This document shows positions 1,754-25,965 of a stretch of 29,044 nt of DNA, one piece after another. The stretch lies in the IMG/VR virus record IMGVR_UViG_3300023216_001562, positions 1 through 29,044 of that record. One strand, written 5' to 3'. The notes below the pieces were generated by a model, which saw only the letters and a list, made by a program, of their open reading frames with translations, did not search any database and was not told the origin of the DNA. This DNA is from a virus. Within the stretch, counting starts at the first letter, position 1. The number at the start of each line of letters is the position of its first letter. A program made the position numbers and the translations under genes.

Positions 1754-4700
1754 ATGGCTAAAAAGAAGAACAAAGAAATACCTCTAGTGGATGCTTATTT
1801 GACTTCCGAGGTTTTATCTAACCTAAAACCAAAACCCGGCGAAGAAATTAAACCCGTAGCCACAAATTCAATGCCTTCTGAAGAACTCTTTATTGAGCGC
1901 AAAGAATATAAAGAACTCGCGTATCCCTATAGCAACGATGAAGTGCCTACGCCCATTGATATTTGGTATAACCGTGGGCTTTATGGAAAAATAGATACAG
2001 ATTATAATCCAGTCTTTGTAGACGAAAAATATCTAAAGAGACTCCCGAGCGAAACCGGAGACACCTTTGCATTAAATTTTGTTGTGGATGCCTTTACGGA
2101 TCTACAAAATTACATGCGTATCGCCGCAAACGAAGGAAAAATATTTACTGAAGATACAAAGTTCCTAGCCATGGAACCCAAAAGAGGATGGACTTCAGTT
2201 CAAAATCGCTATTATGAACACATAACAGTTATGTATGAAGGCTTCGCCGCAACCTTTCTAGACCAAGGAAAAAATAAAAGGGAGCTTACCGATTTTAAGG
2301 ATTTTATGAAACTGTTTCAGACCTACCTTAAGACCGTGCAGCCCGATTTTCCATTCACCAGAACAGGATATATCACTTCTAAATATTGCCCCATTACAAC
2401 TACCGGAATTGTTATTGAATTGGAGCTAGCAAGTCATGGCGACGATCAAGTAAAATATGATGATTATATTGGGGATGTAAATTTCGTTTTCTTTACCCGC
2501 ACTGCTCGTCTATTTGGTTTTTGGGTAGATAAAAATGCACCCTGGCGATTAATCGCGGATTTGAAATCAGAGGTGATGCAAAAATATATGAGTCGTTATC
2601 CAGAAGCACCAGTTGAACCACCATTGAGCGGCTCACAACCACAGCTACCACTTCCTTGTGCTCCCGAGTGGTTTGGTGATTTGAAAAATCAAAAGGTGGA
2701 ATTCAAAAAGCCCGGTAGAGAAGATGGGATTGGATACATCGCGGAGTTATTAGATTGTAACGATCCACTTCGCTCTAGGTTTAAGATTCAAGAAGTTGTA
2801 GATGAGATTGAAATTGAATTGATACAATCGACGGATGTCATTGTACCCAAGATCCAATATGCTGATGGGCACAATTCCTCGGTCGATTCTAAGAGAACAG
2901 CAGCTCAAATTATAAATATTGCTGCGCCTCATATGTCAGGTGTTGGCACAGCGGGTCGGGGACAGCCAGAGGCTTCCGCATATGGTCGCTCTTATCTTAG
3001 TCGATATAGGTGGCTTACTGCCCCCCTTCCTGAAGTGCGTAATGGTCAAACATTGCGGGAAACGGTTGAGAAATATTATGTAGAAAGTTCTACTTATTTT
3101 ACCCGTCAATCCGGCTTGGGCGCGTTTAAGCCACAGCCTATTTTATTGGATGCGAGCGATAGCAAAATTAATTATCTCAACGAGAATATTACAAAATATA
3201 ACTGGAAAGTTTTAGAGGATTCTGATTTTCCGAATCAACAAACTCAATTTTTTCTTACCCCCGACACCAGCGGTGGTCCACTTAGTTCAACAGATGGAAT
3301 TACTACGCCTACACCTCAAATTTATTTTATTCCAGTTCGGGAAGGCTCTCATACAATTCAATTGACGCTTACCGACAACAATGGTGATTTACGAGATGAA
3401 GAAGCCATTGTCACCCTTAACCTCTGTACGCTAGATTGGCAAAAAACTGCCGACGATTTTATATTGACTCCTGGCATTGATGCAGCGGAAGCTTTTGGTC
3501 CCGATTGGATCTATAGTAAACTAAAAGATGAGATTGCTCAAGTGTGGGCTGAGTGGAATCAAAAATCCAACGAAGAGTGGTTTAAATGGCTATCTTCTGT
3601 GCGAAACGAAAAACTCGAAAATATTATGGGCGGCACCCCCGCCGAAAGACAATGGCTTCCTTACTCGCTCGCCGCAAGCACGGCTCCCACAGGTCCAATC
3701 TTTCCCTTTCCATATAAGCGGCAAAGCGCGGCGGCTATCGAAAGTTTCAGAGCCGGAAACTGGTCGTCCCCAGAAATAGAACCCAGCATCGGTGGCCCAA
3801 ACGACCCTTTGTGCCAAGGCGCTTTACTCGGCGACGATCAACTCCCACAGACTGGAGAATTAGAATTTTTACGAACTCGTTTAGGGTGGGATATTGTAGG
3901 GAAGTATAAATTATTGACGGCATGGATACAATATCTCATGTTTGAACCTAGTGGGGCTTTCGTAGAGACAGTCCCACGACTCCTGTATCCAGTCTTGGCC
4001 ACCCATAATACTTGGAAGCGATTGTTAATCCGCGCTGAAATCGGGCCGGATATATACTTAACTTCCACCGGCTTCAACGCCGTCGGCCTTGGGACAGCAA
4101 ACTGTCTCCATCAATTTGTTTATAACCAGTGGCAAGCAAGAAATTTATCAGCACCAGCCGCGTTTGGTCAGTCGGCAAATCATCGATACGATTTTCATCC
4201 ACCACCACTTTATGGGAATTGTGCAACAAAAATTGAGCGATACAATTTGCTGTCACCTACAGGTGCCTCGGGAGGATTCCCCATAAAAGACTATATTTTC
4301 CGTGGCCCCAGCGCCAGCGGTGCTGCCCGTCAAGGATATCAGTCCTATAAGGTTCCTACAGCAGTAAACTTAACGAGCCTACTTCCCCGTGAAAAAGGCT
4401 TGAACGATAATCAAATGGGAAATATGTTTGGCGGCGCATTGGCAGATTTATTTGAAATTATCCTTGTGGTAAGTCGTCAACTCTTAGGTGGTGCGCCTGT
4501 GCGGGAACTCACCGGAAACGTAAACCCACCAAATTTTCCCGGTGTGCCCCCCATCAGCCCAGAGCCCCTCCTAGAACATTTCACTTTTACCGAGTGGTTT
4601 ACGGGATTCGCCCGCGAGCCCTTTAGCGGAATGGGTGTTGTCCCTTTTGCACCATTTTGGCAAAGACTCCCATCCGGCCCCGGCATCGGGAGTGTCGATG

Positions 4701-5941
4701 AGAATTATCGTAGTGATTTTGTTATAAAGAAAATAGATTTTACAGGAGCCCTGACTCGAATTTTAAACGGTCGTCAGTGGAACGAATCACACATCCCAGG
4801 CACACTCGCCACGCCTTATGAACTTTGGCGTACTAGGGTCTATCACATTCCGGCATCGTATGCTCGTCCTTTGTTTGTGGATGATCCACGATTTCGAGAT
4901 GCCATTATCCCTAGCCAGATAATGCCTGGTGCCCCATCTCCTACGGTCGTCACTTCAGAATTAGATGAGGTTGTTCGCTATTTGACATCGCTAGATCCTA
5001 GTGACAACAAACCAGGAGTGCCCACTTATGATAACATGTTAACTTTTGTAATAGCGGTTGCTTCAGGAGAGAATTGCGGCAAGATTCTTCTCCCCGATGC
5101 TATTCCAAGCGCAGATCCTCCACCCATAACAATTAGCTTAGACACATTCGAAACACTTCCTTTTGATTATGGTGGGAGTTTCCCAGACGAGCCCCCCCGC
5201 GAAAAAGATTGGGTATTATCTTTTGGAGATGTCGAGGAATATTCTAATAAGCGAGAACAATATACTCAAGCCATAATCGACCACCCACGTCTGCTAAGGG
5301 AATGGGAGTTACGAAAACTCGCATATGATAATTGGGTTATTGCTTACGCTGATTGGCTCACCCTTCCGCGCTTAAGTTTTGATAATTTGTATTTGCATAA
5401 TCCACCCGTTCTTCGATCTCCTGGTGAATATGTCCGATCTTTTGAAACCGACATTGATTTGTTACAAACTTATACATTGAATTTTTATAACTCTTATGTG
5501 GCGAAGCACCCCTTCATTGTCACTAGCCAATTTAATAAATGTGGAGACGGAACATTACAGAAGATAGAGACTCGCGAATTGTTGAGTGGCGTAGAACTTA
5601 TGCGAACATATGACGATTTGTTTTGGCTTAAGTTTTATTTTGCTATACGCATTTCTGAATCAGATCGAATCTTATCCTTTAGTGAAGAGGATGCGATGAT
5701 AAAACAGATAGAAAATCTCTATTCCAATTCATTGGCATCAAGTGATTCCAATAAATTTACGAAAGCACTACAGAGGATTGCATTTGAGACTAACGGGGTC
5801 TTCGAGGACAAATCAGGATTGACGGTTCAAAACAAAGATGATAAAATAATAAATAAATTCAAAAATATAACTGAACAAAAAACCTTGACCTTGCGTGATG
5901 TCTATGATATTGTTCTACCTGATGGATCTTTCCAACCATAA
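1754..5941 (+). CDS. Large virion structural protein (1395 aa) with PKD-like domain
   Basis: I do not recognise the family as a whole. Residues about 460-557 look like a PKD/Ig-type beta domain (LLDASDSKINYL, then Y-x-W, then REGSHTIQLTLTDNNGD), a fold common in secreted and virion surface proteins. The rest is rich in Pro, Trp and Tyr with no transmembrane segment or signal peptide. The C-terminal 100 residues turn helical and charged. A purine-rich GAGGAG at 1735-1740 and TAAGG at 1741-1745 precede the ATG. Size, composition and position directly after a hub-like gene point to a baseplate or tail-fibre-attachment protein; that role is inferred. Its last 20 bases overlap the next gene, where a promoter for the replication block is embedded. 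Confidence 0.6.
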   Translation: MAKKKNKEIPLVDAYLTSEVLSNLKPKPGEEIKPVATNSMPSEELFIERKEYKELAYPYSNDEVPTPIDIWYNRGLYGKIDTDYNPVFVDEKYLKRLPSETGDTFALNFVVDAFTDLQNYMRIAANEGKIFTEDTKFLAMEPKRGWTSVQNRYYEHITVMYEGFAATFLDQGKNKRELTDFKDFMKLFQTYLKTVQPDFPFTRTGYITSKYCPITTTGIVIELELASHGDDQVKYDDYIGDVNFVFFTRTARLFGFWVDKNAPWRLIADLKSEVMQKYMSRYPEAPVEPPLSGSQPQLPLPCAPEWFGDLKNQKVEFKKPGREDGIGYIAELLDCNDPLRSRFKIQEVVDEIEIELIQSTDVIVPKIQYADGHNSSVDSKRTAAQIINIAAPHMSGVGTAGRGQPEASAYGRSYLSRYRWLTAPLPEVRNGQTLRETVEKYYVESSTYFTRQSGLGAFKPQPILLDASDSKINYLNENITKYNWKVLEDSDFPNQQTQFFLTPDTSGGPLSSTDGITTPTPQIYFIPVREGSHTIQLTLTDNNGDLRDEEAIVTLNLCTLDWQKTADDFILTPGIDAAEAFGPDWIYSKLKDEIAQVWAEWNQKSNEEWFKWLSSVRNEKLENIMGGTPAERQWLPYSLAASTAPTGPIFPFPYKRQSAAAIESFRAGNWSSPEIEPSIGGPNDPLCQGALLGDDQLPQTGELEFLRTRLGWDIVGKYKLLTAWIQYLMFEPSGAFVETVPRLLYPVLATHNTWKRLLIRAEIGPDIYLTSTGFNAVGLGTANCLHQFVYNQWQARNLSAPAAFGQSANHRYDFHPPPLYGNCATKIERYNLLSPTGASGGFPIKDYIFRGPSASGAARQGYQSYKVPTAVNLTSLLPREKGLNDNQMGNMFGGALADLFEIILVVSRQLLGGAPVRELTGNVNPPNFPGVPPISPEPLLEHFTFTEWFTGFAREPFSGMGVVPFAPFWQRLPSGPGIGSVDENYRSDFVIKKIDFTGALTRILNGRQWNESHIPGTLATPYELWRTRVYHIPASYARPLFVDDPRFRDAIIPSQIMPGAPSPTVVTSELDEVVRYLTSLDPSDNKPGVPTYDNMLTFVIAVASGENCGKILLPDAIPSADPPPITISLDTFETLPFDYGGSFPDEPPREKDWVLSFGDVEEYSNKREQYTQAIIDHPRLLREWELRKLAYDNWVIAYADWLTLPRLSFDNLYLHNPPVLRSPGEYVRSFETDIDLLQTYTLNFYNSYVAKHPFIVTSQFNKCGDGTLQKIETRELLSGVELMRTYDDLFWLKFYFAIRISESDRILSFSEEDAMIKQIENLYSNSLASSDSNKFTKALQRIAFETNGVFEDKSGLTVQNKDDKIINKFKNITEQKTLTLRDVYDIVLPDGSFQP
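5885..5913 (+). promoter_or_regulatory. Candidate sigma70-type promoter for the polA-like gene (leaderless layout)
   Basis: TTGACC (5885-5890), a 17-base spacer, then TATTGT (5908-5913), and the ATG at 5922 after 8 bases. Transcription would begin at or within one or two bases of the start codon. There is no Shine-Dalgarno sequence before this ATG. The site lies inside the 3' end of the preceding structural gene, at the boundary between the virion block and the replication block. Confidence 0.45.
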
Positions 5942-7154
5942 ATCAGATACCTCTTTGTTCGAAATCGTAGATCAAAAACAACACTGTAAGAGCATTTATT
6001 GCGATAATCACATTGTAGAAGATCCAGATTACGGGTGCCTCTCCAAGACTTGGGCATATCACTCAACCCTAAAGGGTTATGATATCAAGTATGCGTCCTT
6101 GTATGCCAAGACGAGAACCCTTGACGAGTGTTGCCCCGATGAATTAAAGGGAGAGTGGATGACCATTAAGAAAAAATACTCGGCTTATATTAAGTCTTTC
6201 CAGACTGGCTTTTGTGAACTGGATGAGGAGTGTTTTTATAATTTAGTTCCACACAGTTTTGTAATTGAATATTTTAATCTCAAGAGTCAAATAACAGATC
6301 ATGTCTTGTCTACCATCCCAGAACCAGAAGACTATAGTTTTTTAGTTGAGTTGTCGGAATTATTAACTGATATCCGAGATCATAAATTATTAATTGAGCC
6401 CAAGGAAATTGCTAACAAACTTCACGAAACTAAAACTCGAAGTTTCTTTTCCAAGCTACATGCGGTAAGACCATTTATCGACTATAATATGTTTGGGACT
6501 ATTACTGGTCGCTTGACCACACACAAAAATTCTTTTCCTCTGCTTACAATGAGCAAAGATTACCGGCGAGTGGTTAGGCCAACGAATACTTGGTTTATCG
6601 AATTGGATTTCAATGCGGCGGAGTTGCGTTGCCTTCTCTCCCTTAACGATCAAGAACAACCACAACAGGACATACATGATTGGCATGGATCAATTTTTAA
6701 TAGGTTATCGGATCACAAGTTGAGCCGTGATGATATTAAACGCAAAATCTTTGGATGGCTCTATGGTCCTTTGGGGGCATCACTTGGTATTCCCCAAGTA
6801 GAAAAACACTATGACAAAAGAAAAGTATTAAATAAATATTGGGACGGAAGTGTCGTCACTAATCCGTTTGGTCGAAAGATTATAGCTGATGAGTTTCATG
6901 CTCTCAATGCAATTATACAAAGCACCACTTCCGATACATTTTTGCGTAGAGCAATAGCAGTAAATAAATTATTAGAAAATAAAAAGTCCTTTACAATGGG
7001 GCTCATTCACGATAGTATGGTAATAGACTTTCATCGGGAAGAGAAAGATCTTATCGATGAAATAATTAAAGAATTCGGCGATACGGATTTGGGAAAATTC
7101 AAAGTGAACACCAGCCTTGGAACACACTTTGGAAACTTAAAGAGGTTTAGATGA
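5922..7154 (+). CDS. Family A DNA polymerase, polymerase domain only (PolA-like)
   Basis: Template-directed DNA synthesis enzyme of the Pol I family, 410 aa from ATG 5922. All polymerase motifs line up with Klenow spacing: TGRLTT near residue 195-200; motif A with D229 and E234 (Klenow D705/E710); O-helix R269, K273, F277, Y281 (R754/K758/F762/Y766); motif C H363-D364-S365. Motif C has Ser where Klenow has E883. The first ~180 residues do not show 3'-5' or 5'-3' exonuclease motifs. In-frame GTG 5895 and ATGs 5898 and 5904 are alternative starts, but none has an RBS; 5922 was chosen because a promoter ends 8 bases before it. It overlaps the next gene by ATGA. DnaE is also encoded in this window, so repair, gap filling or recombination synthesis is a more likely role than bulk replication. 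Confidence 0.85.
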   Translation: MDLSNHKSDTSLFEIVDQKQHCKSIYCDNHIVEDPDYGCLSKTWAYHSTLKGYDIKYASLYAKTRTLDECCPDELKGEWMTIKKKYSAYIKSFQTGFCELDEECFYNLVPHSFVIEYFNLKSQITDHVLSTIPEPEDYSFLVELSELLTDIRDHKLLIEPKEIANKLHETKTRSFFSKLHAVRPFIDYNMFGTITGRLTTHKNSFPLLTMSKDYRRVVRPTNTWFIELDFNAAELRCLLSLNDQEQPQQDIHDWHGSIFNRLSDHKLSRDDIKRKIFGWLYGPLGASLGIPQVEKHYDKRKVLNKYWDGSVVTNPFGRKIIADEFHALNAIIQSTTSDTFLRRAIAVNKLLENKKSFTMGLIHDSMVIDFHREEKDLIDEIIKEFGDTDLGKFKVNTSLGTHFGNLKRFR

Positions 7155-16147: not shown

Positions 16148-16717
16148 GTGGAAAATAAAGATATTCTTACAAAAGCAATTGAAAAACAATCACGTCTTTT
16201 GATGGACATTGAGGTCATTGATGCCTGTGATATTATAATGGAAGATGATGGTTTTAGTGCTGTTCCTGATGATATTGTAGGAAAACGTAGATTGGACATT
16301 GGAATGAAAAATCGTCCTCGTCGCTGGTATGGTTTATTATCCAAATTCAACCAAGAGGAAAAACAAAAAATAGGCTCTCAAGAAGTTCAACCATGGGGCA
16401 AGTATGAAATTCTATTAAATGATTCGACTTGCAAAGTTAAGAAAATTACTGTAACCCCCAAAGGTAGGTTGTGTTACCAGTCCCATGAGAAAAGAGCAGA
16501 AGTGTGGGTAGTTATCTCAGGTCATGGCAAGCTAACTTGCGATGGAAAGACTGACGATATCGCGCCTGCTGCCATAGTGATGATCCCATATGGTATGAAG
16601 CATCGTATTGAAAACACGAACGAAGCAGAAGATTTAGTTTTCATTGAAACCCAAATTGGAACATACTTTGGCGAAGACGATATTACGAGATACGAGGATG
16701 ATTATGGTCGAGAGTAG
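16148..16717 (+). CDS. Cupin protein, mannose-6-phosphate isomerase type II-like
   Basis: 189 aa. From residue 82 on, PWGKYEILL followed by KVKKITVTPKGRLCYQSH and VWVVISGHGKLTCDG is the pattern of the C-terminal isomerase cupin of bifunctional ManC/AlgA enzymes. Metal ligands are visible as Q111-x-H113, E118 and H152. The N-terminal 80 residues are not part of that family and look helical and charged. It may isomerise or bind a phosphosugar; a nucleotidyltransferase-like gene lies 1.2 kb downstream. Start is GTG 16148 with GAGG 6 bases upstream; ATG 16146 is in another frame. Confidence 0.8.
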   Translation: MENKDILTKAIEKQSRLLMDIEVIDACDIIMEDDGFSAVPDDIVGKRRLDIGMKNRPRRWYGLLSKFNQEEKQKIGSQEVQPWGKYEILLNDSTCKVKKITVTPKGRLCYQSHEKRAEVWVVISGHGKLTCDGKTDDIAPAAIVMIPYGMKHRIENTNEAEDLVFIETQIGTYFGEDDITRYEDDYGRE

Positions 16718-17031: not shown

Positions 17032-17934
17032 ATGCACTCCACAATAAGAGACATAAACTTCAATTATGAAAAAATTATTATTGGCTCTAATATTGATGCC
17101 CTTCTCTATTCTTTTTTAAACAATGTTCCTTTTGTTTATGTAAGCATCGATCCTCCTCACCGCTTTGATCATTTTAGTCCCGAGCAAGATTTATCATTCT
17201 TTGGGTTAGAAAACAAATCACACATTCTGGTGAGCCCAACTTCAACTAAAGTTGTTGGGAGCAACAAAGATATATTGTGGGAAAAACTATATTTTTATCT
17301 AACTCTAGCTGGGCTAAATCCCGTGGCGGACAAAGCTTCATCAATCAAGATAGGAGATAAAGAACTTAAAGTCTTCACTCACAAAGCTCGCATGGCAAAA
17401 ATAAACTTTGAGGAGTTAATTATCTTTACCGATGAAGGAGTTTCTGGTTTGCCAACACCCACACAACTTCCACAAAAGAAATATAAAGTTTATGATTGGT
17501 TTGATGTGCGAAGCGGAATGAAACACAAACACGATTATATACAAGATAACACAGAATTCGTTAGTGAAATACTTTTCTATCCCACCGATAGAGTTGACGG
17601 CAACCAAGTTTTTAAAGACGCTGTATCTATTTCTTATCTTACAGAAAAACAACTCAACTCTTTTGATTATTCCGATATCAATGCTCGATTCAAGACCCTC
17701 AAGATGATGAAGGGTGCTGGAATTCGCGGGGCAAGGAATGGCCGTGACATGCTAAACAAAAGTCGTTATAAATATTATGCGGTAAGGATAGAAAATTCCA
17801 TTCGAGAGATCCATTCCCTTGGTAAAACACTTTACGACTCAACAGATACATTAAAGTTTAATGTTGATTCGTTTGATGATATAATAAATAAAAATCCATT
17901 AGTAGAATCTTATGCCGCAAGAATATTCCAGTGA
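17032..17934 (+). CDS. Unknown protein with Rossmann-like N-terminus (300 aa)
   Basis: The N-terminal strand-loop-helix YEKIIIGSNIDALLYSFLNN followed by a strand (VPFVYVS) resembles the beta-alpha-beta of FAD/NAD-binding oxidoreductases and mutases, but the GxGxxG is reduced to G-S-N. The C-terminal half is alpha/beta with MMKGAGIRGARNGRDML and a basic segment. No transmembrane segment. The start ATG at 17032 follows the previous stop by 4 bases without a clear RBS. Its 3' end overlaps the nucleotidyltransferase-like gene by 23 bases, which suggests the two are translated together. I cannot name a family. Confidence 0.6.
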   Translation: MHSTIRDINFNYEKIIIGSNIDALLYSFLNNVPFVYVSIDPPHRFDHFSPEQDLSFFGLENKSHILVSPTSTKVVGSNKDILWEKLYFYLTLAGLNPVADKASSIKIGDKELKVFTHKARMAKINFEELIIFTDEGVSGLPTPTQLPQKKYKVYDWFDVRSGMKHKHDYIQDNTEFVSEILFYPTDRVDGNQVFKDAVSISYLTEKQLNSFDYSDINARFKTLKMMKGAGIRGARNGRDMLNKSRYKYYAVRIENSIREIHSLGKTLYDSTDTLKFNVDSFDDIINKNPLVESYAARIFQ

Positions 17935-18853
17935 AGAAAACATCGTTAACGTTAATTCGTTTCATCTTGCTGGTATTGTTCCTGTGTCCGGGCAGCGGTT
18001 GGATTATAATTTACCTTGGCACGATTGCCTTCAGCCCATAGCACAAAACTTTTTAGCAGTCGAACGAGCCGTGTTGGAGTGTGCCACCGCAGGATGCGAA
18101 ACAATTTGGATTGTCTGCGACTCTAAAATGCAACCATTAATAAAGCACAGACTAGGAGAGATGGTTGAAGATCCTGCTTGGATTGGGCGAAAGTTTGATA
18201 CCTTCCCCAGTGAAAGTAAAAAAGCAATTCCTATTTATTATGTCGAGATACACCCCAAAGATCAGAGGAAAAAAGAATCATTGGTGTGGAGTATTATCTA
18301 CGGCGCAAAAGTGGCTCACAAAACTTGCTATCAATTATCTAAATGGGTAACACCAGATAAATATTATGTAGCGTTTTCTTATGGAGTGTTCCCATCACAA
18401 CACATACGCAAATGGAGAGAAACAATATCCAGACCAGGAAACTTTTTACTAACCACACCAGAAGGTAATTCAGTGATCGATAATGAATACATCGGTTTTG
18501 CATTTGATGCAAGTGAGGTGACAAGATTTTCACAATTGTTTTGGAAAAAAGCCACAGGAGAATTTGATCCAAACTCTCCACTGAGAGATGGAAAATATCC
18601 CATCAACAAACTACCGTTCTCCGAAAGACACTCAGGAAGATATTTTGATCTCAAAGATATTTTTGAAGCCATTGATACTCAAAAGCCAACTACTTGGATT
18701 GAGATGGAATGGTATTATGACATAAGTACATGGGAAGGTTATTGCAAGTATATTGGCTCAGAACATCAAAAGTTAATGAATCGCCCCAAGTCAGATATGT
18801 TAAGATATAGAACTTGGAAGAAAATTGGTATAGATGATGAAGAAAACACTTGA
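17912..18853 (+). CDS. Nucleotidyltransferase-like (GT-A fold) protein
   Basis: 313 aa. HLAGIVPVSGQRLDYNL, then PIAQNFLAVERAVLECATAG and ETIWIVC follow the order of sugar-nucleotide transferases (AGGxGTRL, then K-P...P-I-x-x-K-P-L-I, then a-G-x-x-x-I-v-v-v). The usual catalytic Asp region after the second half ('vlvLxGD') is replaced by YYVAFSYGVF, and the glycine-rich loop is degenerate, so activity may be changed. The C-terminus has several Trp/Tyr-rich segments (WIEMEWYYDISTWEGY). It overlaps the preceding gene by 23 bases and lies after a cupin of the ManC type, so a sugar-nucleotide role is suggested but unproven. Confidence 0.5.
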   Translation: MPQEYSSEENIVNVNSFHLAGIVPVSGQRLDYNLPWHDCLQPIAQNFLAVERAVLECATAGCETIWIVCDSKMQPLIKHRLGEMVEDPAWIGRKFDTFPSESKKAIPIYYVEIHPKDQRKKESLVWSIIYGAKVAHKTCYQLSKWVTPDKYYVAFSYGVFPSQHIRKWRETISRPGNFLLTTPEGNSVIDNEYIGFAFDASEVTRFSQLFWKKATGEFDPNSPLRDGKYPINKLPFSERHSGRYFDLKDIFEAIDTQKPTTWIEMEWYYDISTWEGYCKYIGSEHQKLMNRPKSDMLRYRTWKKIGIDDEENT

Positions 18854-18878
18854 CAACCACTTAGAATTCAGATAACAT
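18850..18878 (+). promoter_or_regulatory. Consensus promoter for dnaE, leaderless layout
   Basis: TTGACA (18850-18855, perfect), 17-base spacer, TAACAT (18873-18878, 4 of 6), then 7 bases to ATG 18886. The expected start of transcription coincides with the A of the start codon. No Shine-Dalgarno sequence precedes the ATG (GATAACATACACAGT). The -35 box overlaps the stop region of the preceding gene. Confidence 0.65.
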
Positions 18879-18885
18879 ACACAGT

Positions 18886-21800
18886 ATGAAATCAGAGATT
18901 CCCTTTGTAGGTCTTCACGCTCACTCCACAGCCGGTTCGCCTTTCGACGCCATCGGCTATCCACAGCAACATATGGACTTTGCCTATGAAAATGGTATGG
19001 ATGCGCTAGCTCTCACTGACCACGGCAATTGTAATGGACTAGCCTATCAAGTTCTTCACGCCAAGTCAATGGAAAAAGAGGGCAAGAATTTTAAGCCCAT
19101 TTACGGGTGCGAGTCTTATTTCATCCCTTCCATTAAAGAATGGAAAGTTCTTAATGAAGAAACAAAAGCGGATAAGAAAAGAAAAAAAGAAAAAGCCAAT
19201 ATCGGATTCGCTGTAGAAAATGAAGTATCTTCTAAAAAAGTTAAAAATGCTATCAATCTACGTTCCCACTTGGTTCTTCTCGCCCAAAACCAAACGGGAT
19301 TAAATAATATATTCAAGTTAGTTTCCCAATCTTATAAGCCAGGAAACTTTTATCGCTATCCGCGTATTGATTTAGAAATGCTCCGTGACTTCGGCGAAGG
19401 CGTGATCGCATCTAGCGCGTGTTTGGGTGGCATTTATGCTACAGATTATTGGAAAAATAAAGACGAAGGTGATGAAAAGGTATTGGAGGCTATGCGTCTT
19501 ACAACCGAGAATATGTTGGGAGTTTTGGGGGATAGATGGCATGGTGAACTACAATGGTGGAATAGCCCACACCAGCATAACCTCAATCAATTCGTAATTC
19601 AGATTTCTAAAGAATATAACTTGCCCCTAATCTCTACTTGCGACAGTCACTTTTATAACCCAGAAGTGTGGAAAGATCGTGAACTCTATAAGAGACTCCA
19701 CCCAGGCTTGGCAGCGTTCCATGGCGATATGCCAGAATCATTAGAGCAGGTTCCTCACGAACTGTATCCTAAAAACGGAGATCAAATGTGGGAATCCTAT
19801 AAAAAGTATTCTTCACAGTCGGGTGAAAAATATGATGATGATCTGATTATGGAATCTATTGAGCGCACTTATGATATAGCTCACAACAGAATTGAAAAGT
19901 TTTATCCAGACAATACAGTCAGACTCCCTTCTTTTGTTATCCCTGATGGAATGGATGAGGATACTGCCCTAAGTGTGGCGGCTTCCAATGGACTCCAGTC
20001 GCAAACCAAACACAGTCAAGAATATCTTGATCGCCTCAAGCACGAACTAGAGGTCATCAAAGATCGTGGCTTTAGCAGATATTTTTTAACAATGAAAGCG
20101 ATTGCCGACAAAGCTACATCAACACAGTTAACGGGACCATCGCGAGGTTCAGCCGGTGGATCATTAGTTGCGTATGCTTTAGGCATAACGCAAGTAGATC
20201 CCATTAAGTATGGGCTACTTTTTTCTAGGTTCTTGAGAGCAGACGCAACAGATTATCCAGACATTGATTATGATGTGTCAGATCCGTTTGTGTTGAAGGA
20301 AATGTTAGTCAAGGAATGGGGTGAAGATAATGTAGTTCCGATCTCTAACTGGAACACGCTACAACTACGGTCACTTATAAAAGACATTTCCAAACTTTAT
20401 AAAGTTCCCTTTCAGGAAGTCAATAAGGTTACAAGCAAAATGGTTGGCGAGTCAATAGGACCAGCCAAAAGAGATCATGGTATAAAAACTGGTGTCTACG
20501 CTCCAACTTTTGATGAAGTGATGAAGTATAGCACGACGCTGCAACAATTCCTTAGAGATTATCCAGAAGTAGAAACTCATGTTCGTACTTTGGTTGGACA
20601 GGTTAGATCGTGCTCCCGTCATGCGGGAGGTCTTGTGGTCGGAGAGAACCTAAATCAATATATGCCATTGATCTATAGCGGTGGAGTAAGACAAACACCG
20701 TGGACCGAGGGACAAAACGTCAGGCATCTTGAGCCCATGGGTTTTATCAAGTTTGACATCCTTGGCTTGAGCACTCTTAGGATGATTGAGGATGCTATTG
20801 GAAAAGTCCTAGAGAGGCACAAAGGAGTTTCGAGTCCTAATTTCAGCGACATAAAAAACTTCTATGACGAAAACCTTCATCCTGATAAACTAGATTTTGA
20901 CAATCAGGATATTTATAAAAACATCTTCCATAAAGGTAAGTGGGCAGGAGTCTTTCAATTCACAGAACCAGGAGCGCAGGGCTTTTGTAAAAAAGCCAAG
21001 CCAACAAGTCTGGTTGATATCGCAGCAATCACCTCCATCTTTAGACCAGGACCATTAGGCGCAAAGGTCGATAGAGATTATGTAGAAGCAAAAGAAAATC
21101 CACAATACATAAAATATCTTCACCCAATCATACAAGAAGTGACAGAAGAAACTTATGGGTTTTTGATTTTCCAAGAGCAGATTGCTTTGCTTGCCCACCG
21201 ATTGGGAAAAGACATTTCCTTGGACGAGGGTAATCTTTTACGCAAACTATTGACAAAGAAAGGAACAGGAAAGGGTGCAGAGGAAAAGACTAAAATTCAT
21301 ACTAAGTTTGTGGCAGGGTGTTTAGAAAAGGAAATTAGTAAAAAACAAGCAGAAGATCTCTGGAACACTTTTGAGTATTTTAGTGGTTACGGCTTTAATA
21401 AGTCCCATGCTGTGGGTTATAGTATATTATCTTACCAGTGTGCTTGGCTTTTAAATTATTATCCATCGGAATGGTGTGCGGCGTTTTTGAATAAAGAGCC
21501 AGAGTCCAAAAAAGAGCGAGCCATCAATGTAGTAAAGAATTTGGGATACGATATCCAAGAAGTCGAAATAAACACTTCAGGAAGATCGTGGGATATTTCC
21601 ACAGATGGTCAACTGGTCCAGCCCCTTACCTCCATCAAAGGCCTTGGCGAGAAGGCTATGGATCAAATTTTACAGAACCGACCCTTTAAGAACGTAGAGG
21701 ATTTTCTATTCAATGAGAATGTAAGTTATTCTAAATTAAATAAAAAAGCTTTGGATGTGCTGGTGAGGTCCGGTGCTTGCGACTCTATTGCAGATGCTCG

Positions 21801-22278
21801 TTTTAAACACTGTAAGCATTTATGGCTTTCAACTGTGAGTGATCGACCGAAGAACAAAAAGAGACTTGAGGATAATATAGCCAAGTATTGTGGTGAGGCA
21901 GATTTTACAGAAGAAGAACGAATTGAGAATATTGTTTCTCTTACGGGGATCTTTCCATTTGAGTTGGTCATGGATAAAAAAGTCCGTGAACGTATCGAGC
22001 ACAACTGCGTTCCTCCCATCGCACAATTTGATAAAGACCTGGGGCTGTGTTGGCTTATTCCAAGAAGCGTAACCGTCAGGCAAACAAAGAATGGTCGCGA
22101 CTTTTGGATTATAAATGTGATTGACGATACGTGCCAAAGCACCGACATTAAGTGCTGGAATGTAAGAACTGAAGATAAGGTTCATCTGAACCGACCATAT
22201 ATAGCAAAACTAGATTATGATGAGCAGTGGGGTTTTTCGACTCGTTCTATTAAACATAATTTTATATTAGTGGGGTAA
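18886..22278 (+). CDS. dnaE: DNA polymerase III alpha subunit (DnaE)
   Basis: 1130 aa, near the bacterial length (E. coli 1160). N-terminal PHP domain with all nine metal ligands apparently kept: H11, H13, D21, H46, E76, H128, C (in SSACLGG), and D/H in TCDSHF. A Lys/Glu-rich insert lies at about 83-124. The palm has PSRGSAGGSLVAYALGITQ, PDIDYD (catalytic Asp pair) and KFDILGL (third Asp). The fingers/thumb part has GFLIFQEQIALLAHRLG and GFNKSHAVGYSILSYQ. The C-terminus has a helix-hairpin-helix (SIKGLGEKA) and an OB-like region. It is probably the replicative polymerase of this phage. No dnaQ-type proofreading gene is seen in the window. Own promoter directly upstream; start at ATG 18886. 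Confidence 0.95.
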   Translation: MKSEIPFVGLHAHSTAGSPFDAIGYPQQHMDFAYENGMDALALTDHGNCNGLAYQVLHAKSMEKEGKNFKPIYGCESYFIPSIKEWKVLNEETKADKKRKKEKANIGFAVENEVSSKKVKNAINLRSHLVLLAQNQTGLNNIFKLVSQSYKPGNFYRYPRIDLEMLRDFGEGVIASSACLGGIYATDYWKNKDEGDEKVLEAMRLTTENMLGVLGDRWHGELQWWNSPHQHNLNQFVIQISKEYNLPLISTCDSHFYNPEVWKDRELYKRLHPGLAAFHGDMPESLEQVPHELYPKNGDQMWESYKKYSSQSGEKYDDDLIMESIERTYDIAHNRIEKFYPDNTVRLPSFVIPDGMDEDTALSVAASNGLQSQTKHSQEYLDRLKHELEVIKDRGFSRYFLTMKAIADKATSTQLTGPSRGSAGGSLVAYALGITQVDPIKYGLLFSRFLRADATDYPDIDYDVSDPFVLKEMLVKEWGEDNVVPISNWNTLQLRSLIKDISKLYKVPFQEVNKVTSKMVGESIGPAKRDHGIKTGVYAPTFDEVMKYSTTLQQFLRDYPEVETHVRTLVGQVRSCSRHAGGLVVGENLNQYMPLIYSGGVRQTPWTEGQNVRHLEPMGFIKFDILGLSTLRMIEDAIGKVLERHKGVSSPNFSDIKNFYDENLHPDKLDFDNQDIYKNIFHKGKWAGVFQFTEPGAQGFCKKAKPTSLVDIAAITSIFRPGPLGAKVDRDYVEAKENPQYIKYLHPIIQEVTEETYGFLIFQEQIALLAHRLGKDISLDEGNLLRKLLTKKGTGKGAEEKTKIHTKFVAGCLEKEISKKQAEDLWNTFEYFSGYGFNKSHAVGYSILSYQCAWLLNYYPSEWCAAFLNKEPESKKERAINVVKNLGYDIQEVEINTSGRSWDISTDGQLVQPLTSIKGLGEKAMDQILQNRPFKNVEDFLFNENVSYSKLNKKALDVLVRSGACDSIADARFKHCKHLWLSTVSDRPKNKKRLEDNIAKYCGEADFTEEERIENIVSLTGIFPFELVMDKKVRERIEHNCVPPIAQFDKDLGLCWLIPRSVTVRQTKNGRDFWIINVIDDTCQSTDIKCWNVRTEDKVHLNRPYIAKLDYDEQWGFSTRSIKHNFILVG

Positions 22279-25514: not shown

Positions 25515-25543
25515 TTTACTTTTACTGAGTGATTGTGTATAAT
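25515..25543 (+). promoter_or_regulatory. Promoter for the membrane protein/ClpP/lysis operon (leaderless layout)
   Basis: TTTACT (25515-25520), 17-base spacer, TATAAT (25538-25543, perfect consensus), then 8 bases to ATG 25552. The start of transcription would fall within a couple of bases of the ATG. No Shine-Dalgarno sequence is present upstream of the ATG. This is the same arrangement as before the polA-like and dnaE genes. Confidence 0.6.
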
Positions 25544-25551
25544 AATAACTA

Positions 25552-25965
25552 ATGGAAGACGCAAACTTTGTCTTGTTAGTTATTGGTTTTTTTATTGGTT
25601 ACGTTATCAAATCATTTTTGACTTTCCGTTCTGGTTGGTCCGCAACCGCACACCTTGTTCAAAAGGTTGGCGATCAATGCCTCAAACTTATGGGCACCAT
25701 CGTCTATAAAGTTTCTTTTATGGATCAGCTATATCAGCGATCAATTGCCTTGACATTAGATTCAGAACTTGCTAAACTTAAACGTAATGAGTTAGACAAC
25801 GAGTTTGATGATTGGAAAAAAGAAACAATACAACTTTTTAAGGAACACTATCCAGAAGACTACAAGTGGCAACTTGAAGTTTTTGATTGGAAAAGTGCCA
25901 TGAGAGTTTTGACTGATATTTATCAAGAAGACAGATACAAGGAAGCGGATAATGACGACCAATGA
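25552..25965 (+). CDS. Membrane-anchored protein of unknown function (137 aa)
   Basis: One N-terminal transmembrane helix (residues about 5-24, FVLLVIGFFIGYVIKSFL), no signal-peptidase site, then an amphipathic region (WSATAHLVQKVGDQCLKLMG) and a soluble domain with coiled-coil character and a Trp-rich end (YKWQLEVFDWKSAMRVLTDI). The soluble part probably lies in the cytoplasm. It is the first gene of a unit that goes on to a ClpP-like protease and an endolysin. A holin role is not supported: single anchor and a large folded tail. The start follows a promoter without RBS. Overlaps the next gene by 14 bases. Confidence 0.65.
   Translation: MEDANFVLLVIGFFIGYVIKSFLTFRSGWSATAHLVQKVGDQCLKLMGTIVYKVSFMDQLYQRSIALTLDSELAKLKRNELDNEFDDWKKETIQLFKEHYPEDYKWQLEVFDWKSAMRVLTDIYQEDRYKEADNDDQ

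Follow-up and report, generated by a model that had tools for sequence, protein, structure and literature searches.

A promoter set against the start codon predicts a leaderless message for a phage replicative DNA polymerase gene

The window analysed here is the whole of a 29,044-nucleotide stretch of viral DNA (IMG/VR record IMGVR_UViG_3300023216_001562, positions 1 to 29,044). Its forward strand carries dnaE (18886 to 22278), a gene of 1130 codons for the alpha subunit of DNA polymerase III, which is predicted to be expressed from a leaderless message. The product matches the Pfam families PF02811, PF07733, PF17657 and PF14579 (PHP, DNA_pol3_alpha, finger and HHH_6, respectively) and PHROG 405, and is a DnaE-type Pol III alpha. 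Directly before dnaE, on the same strand, lies a conserved gene for a protein of 313 amino acids (17912 to 18853) that has no Pfam or PHROG match. The window also contains a gene with a Pol A-like DNA polymerase domain (5895 to 7154, about 400 amino acids, matching Pfam DNA_pol_A), so that two types of DNA polymerase seem to be encoded by one phage. Other genes include one for a protein of 1395 amino acids without any Pfam match (1754 to 5941) and one for a mannose-6-phosphate isomerase C-terminal (cupin) protein (16148 to 16717). The dnaE clade is made up of uncultivated viruses that infect bacteria and are probably marine. No close isolate phages were found; all DnaE matches lay below 60%, and at 26-31% among the matches listed.

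A promoter of the sigma70 type occupies the junction between the two genes on the forward strand. Its -35 element, TTGACA (18850 to 18855), overlaps the TGA stop codon of the upstream gene (18851 to 18853) and is followed by a 17-nt spacer (18856 to 18872), the -10 element TAACAT (18873 to 18878) and a 7-nt discriminator, ACACAGT (18879 to 18885), which leads straight into the ATG at 18886 to 18888. These positions agree with the original prediction, which had placed TTGACA-17-TAACAT 7 nt before ATG 18886. The fit to the sigma70 consensus (TTGACA, 16-18 nt, TATAAT-like) is six of six bases at -35 and four of six at -10, with a spacer of 17. The gap of 7 nt lies within the 5-9 nt between -10 element and start codon that define a TA-led gene. 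The window holds a single copy of the exact pattern, against 0.08 copies expected from shuffled sequences. By Markov simulation, TTGAC-N18-TANNAT would fall 5-9 nt before a start with a probability of about 6e-5 per gene, or about 0.002 for 28 genes.

The ATG at 18886 is the only plausible start of dnaE. In the window sequence, no in-frame ATG, GTG or TTG lies 5′ of it before a stop codon is reached, and the product shows the PHP-domain motif FVGLHAHS from residue 7 onwards. A mis-annotated start is thereby ruled out, since there is no upstream in-frame start and the PHP motif follows six residues after the ATG. Weak mRNA structure at the start was also considered and set aside: in 10 of 11 sequences the average internal stretch is more structured than the first 40 nt, but within single genes the 5′ structure is unexceptional, and in one relative (L008) it is strong.

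Pairing to the anti-Shine-Dalgarno sequence is lacking at dnaE: the 20 nt that precede ATG 18886 score 0.0 kcal/mol, where the median for the window is -6.05. The claim that no Shine-Dalgarno (SD) site precedes the gene is thus borne out. The further claim that this absence is specific to dnaE is not, because a small set of genes, several of them for replication or recombination, shares the layout, including the gene that starts at 25552; about a quarter of the genes in the window and two related genomes have no strong SD pairing. Among DnaE relatives, median pairing is -1.9 kcal/mol in the leaderless-type group and -6.5 kcal/mol in leadered relatives (Mann-Whitney p 1e-7, for sequences that are not independent). 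Pairing of -4 kcal/mol or stronger is seen in 53 of 54 leadered relatives but in 3 of 14 leaderless-type sequences. G-rich stretches in 3 of these 14 could pair with the anti-SD sequence if a longer leader existed.

Conservation was assessed in relatives taken from IMG/VR by the DnaE protein alone, with the promoter disregarded. This unselected set comprises 11 distinct sequences, the window included, with at least 71% DnaE identity and with both the start and the upstream DNA present. The arrangement TTGAC[AT]-17-TANNAT-6/7-ATG is kept in all 11, so that the loss of hexamers in close relatives, which would have spoken against the original prediction, was not seen. A comparison of 43 diverged pairs from this set, at 70-78% protein identity, found the nine core promoter bases 100% identical. 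In the same pairs, mean identity is 34% in the spacer, 40% in the 30 nt 5′ of the -35 element and 36% at fourfold-degenerate codon sites, where random sequences would give about 27%. Since the core bases and the distance are kept while neutral DNA is near-randomised, both the promoter and its distance from the ATG are under purifying selection.

A separate pattern scan of the collection, which allowed gaps of 3-12 nt and required an ATG, returned 21 stretches; among those read back, the gap at dnaE was only 6 or 7. Both searches pooled give 18 distinct dnaE promoters, of which the 11 of the protein-based set were not selected by promoter. TTGAC is invariant in the 18, with A or T as the sixth base, as is TANNAT; the spacer is 17 nt throughout and the discriminator 6 or 7 nt. 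All leaderless-type relatives examined start with ATG, as does the window gene, although the protein-based set did not require it. Spacer position 13, five bases before the -10 element, is T in 18 of 18 promoters and is followed by C in 13 of 18. Conservation of the site may therefore go beyond that of a plain sigma70 promoter.

Relatives with other junctions indicate how the arrangement arose. Searches with tblastn found the upstream gene before dnaE in most loci of both the leaderless and the leadered type, and this conserved position suggests that it has a role linked to replication. Of 10 leadered junctions checked, 9 have the stop codon of the upstream gene 8-14 nt inside dnaE, and the remaining one has it 11 nt before dnaE. 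Where leaderless loci show an open frame upstream, it mostly ends 27-54 nt before dnaE, which leaves room for a promoter, though some of the frames, being short, may not be genes. A tree of 68 DnaE proteins gathers 13 leaderless sequences in a single clade (support 100) and places one more, L082, apart from them inside the leadered group. As the branches concerned are strongly supported, two changes, that is two origins of the leaderless state, are required. Relatives with the same gene order use ordinary SD sites, which suggests a genuine evolutionary switch, of a kind that is known but uncommon. The likely history, judged from these sequences, is that the overlap and the SD site were lost and an AUG-fused promoter was gained.

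These observations are best explained by a dnaE promoter fused to the start codon, giving a leaderless message without an SD site that arose from a leadered arrangement; we assign this reading a probability of roughly 0.8. From the promoter geometry, the dnaE message is probably leaderless. RNA polymerase, presumably with the main sigma factor of the host, would start on the A of AUG 18886 or no more than 1-2 nt away, and ribosomes would begin on the 5′-terminal AUG, by analogy with studied leaderless mRNAs and possibly through 70S-type initiation. The ancestral message would have been leadered; usually the dnaE start would have overlapped the 3′ end of the upstream gene, within which the SD site would have lain. 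Through the switch, dnaE would gain a transcription unit of its own and its translation would no longer be tied to the upstream gene, from which a regulatory benefit might follow.

At sigma70 promoters, a 6-nt discriminator puts +1 on the A of the ATG, and a 7-nt discriminator puts it one base earlier or, given the preference for purines, on the A. The dnaE start is accordingly predicted at T18885 or, more likely, A18886; a message beginning at G18884 or T18885 is also conceivable and would still be nearly leaderless. A pyrimidine directly before the ATG, expected if +1 is the A, fits a pyrimidine-purine start there. Among SD-led genes in two related genomes, 68 of 178 have one, compared with 15 of 18 dnaE promoters (Fisher p 0.0003) and 8 of 11 sequences of the unselected set (Fisher p 0.03), p values that are optimistic because the sequences are related. 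Other non-SD genes in Proteobacteria are likewise reported to carry a pyrimidine directly before the start (PMC3160421), and leaderless initiation is known to prefer AUG (PMC3616915).

Other accounts of the junction can be weighed against this evidence. The promoter could be real while most DnaE is made from a read-through message by non-SD translation (S1-dependent or by 70S scanning), the leaderless message serving as a minor booster. The upstream gene shares the strand of dnaE and has its end within the -35 element, no terminator-like site was found between it and the dnaE promoter, and the genes of the window are closely packed on one strand, all of which would suit read-through. A plain booster promoter, however, would not need the 6-7 nt gap that is held across the clade, and the leaderless clade has lost the SD site and most of its members show a 27-54 nt gap where most leadered relatives checked have overlap and SD. 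We regard read-through as the chief source of DnaE as unlikely. Less probable still is that transcription starts elsewhere, at a phage-specific or shifted promoter, and that the conserved motif is an operator or another DNA site. The invariant T five bases before the -10 element, with C next in most promoters, hints that the site may hold more than the hexamers, but TTGACA and TANNAT at exactly 17 nt form the classic sigma70 layout, which moreover recurs before unrelated genes.

Chance, or shared ancestry without function, has the least to recommend it. The DNA is AT-rich, and the scanned region holds 46 promoter-like matches against 41 in shuffles, so that a single consensus match means little. 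A chance match was nevertheless rejected on the conservation of the nine core bases against near-randomised neutral sites; the narrow distribution of gaps and the separate gain in L082 also argue against it.

Leaderless transcripts have been described in phages, namely lambda cI (PMC9031893) and phiYS40 (PMC3594737), and in bacteria (PMC3160421, PMC3616915, PMC12340547). The lambda cI message resembles the predicted dnaE message in belonging to a phage gene, starting at the AUG and having no SD site. It encodes a repressor, whereas dnaE is a replicative DNA polymerase gene of an uncultivated large-phage clade in which the evolutionary switch is visible. The Thermus phage phiYS40 likewise expresses genes from leaderless messages, as is predicted here, but most of its middle and late transcripts are of this kind (PMC3594737), whereas in the present phages only a small gene set stands beside SD-led genes; unlike in phiYS40, the dnaE layout includes a full -35 element. 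In TA-led bacterial genes, TANNNT lies about 10-12 nt before the start and +1 coincides with the start codon (PMC3160421), and the -10-adjacent open reading frames of Deinococcus have the -10 element placed to the same effect (PMC12340547), as predicted for dnaE. Those are cellular genes, while here a complete TTGACA-17-TANNAT precedes a phage gene. Searches of an open-access library turned up no account of a leaderless replicative polymerase gene in a phage. The dnaE case is a well-conserved addition to the leaderless phage messages already known. An essential phage gene, formerly translated from an SD site and usually overlapping its neighbour, has at least twice changed to predicted leaderless initiation, and with the promoter-to-AUG distance held by selection it offers a clear comparative case. 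Leaderless initiation can thereby be put to the test on a replicative polymerase, and methods that predict start sites in phage metagenomes should take account of -10 elements besides SD sites.

The layout is also found before other genes. A second leaderless-type promoter, TTTACT-17-TATAAT with an 8-nt gap (25515 to 25551, forward strand), precedes the ATG at 25552 of a gene for a 137-residue protein of unassigned function. It is unchanged in 3 close relatives, and the diverged ortholog in the related genome G003 has TTGAAT-17-TATACT, 7 nt and ATG. The Pol A-like gene is a weaker third candidate, with TTGACC-17-TATTGT and 8 nt (5885 to 5921, forward strand) before an ATG at 5922. Two relatives (G004 and L133) have TTGACC-17-TANNAT there with gaps of 6 and 7, and two others (L131 and L132) are SD-led; these SD-led relatives and an uncertain start codon make the case weaker. 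In the large related contigs G001 and G003, and in further close relatives, the layout stands before an SbcCD-like nuclease gene with a gap of 8, while diverged relatives mostly have SD sites. In the more distant G007, genes for a DnaG-like primase (whose matches fall below the Pfam cut-offs) and a possible pyrimidine-dimer glycosylase share it. Elsewhere in these genomes, strong promoters are followed by leaders of about 20-45 nt, in several cases with a recognisable SD site, so the phages use both modes. One could imagine a small leaderless regulon of replication and recombination genes (dnaE, the SbcCD-like nuclease, possibly the Pol A-like protein and, in a distant relative, the DnaG-like primase) whose translation would be controlled apart from that of SD-led genes, for example by being favoured when infection changes initiation factors or ribosomes; this idea is tentative and rather doubtful. 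A leaderless-type promoter also precedes a gene for an IscU/NifU-like iron-sulphur scaffold protein on the reverse strand of G003 (contig C1, near 24979). The best cellular match of this protein is to Candidatus Thioglobus (77%), followed by a mixed list, and is only suggestive of a host resembling Candidatus Thioglobus.
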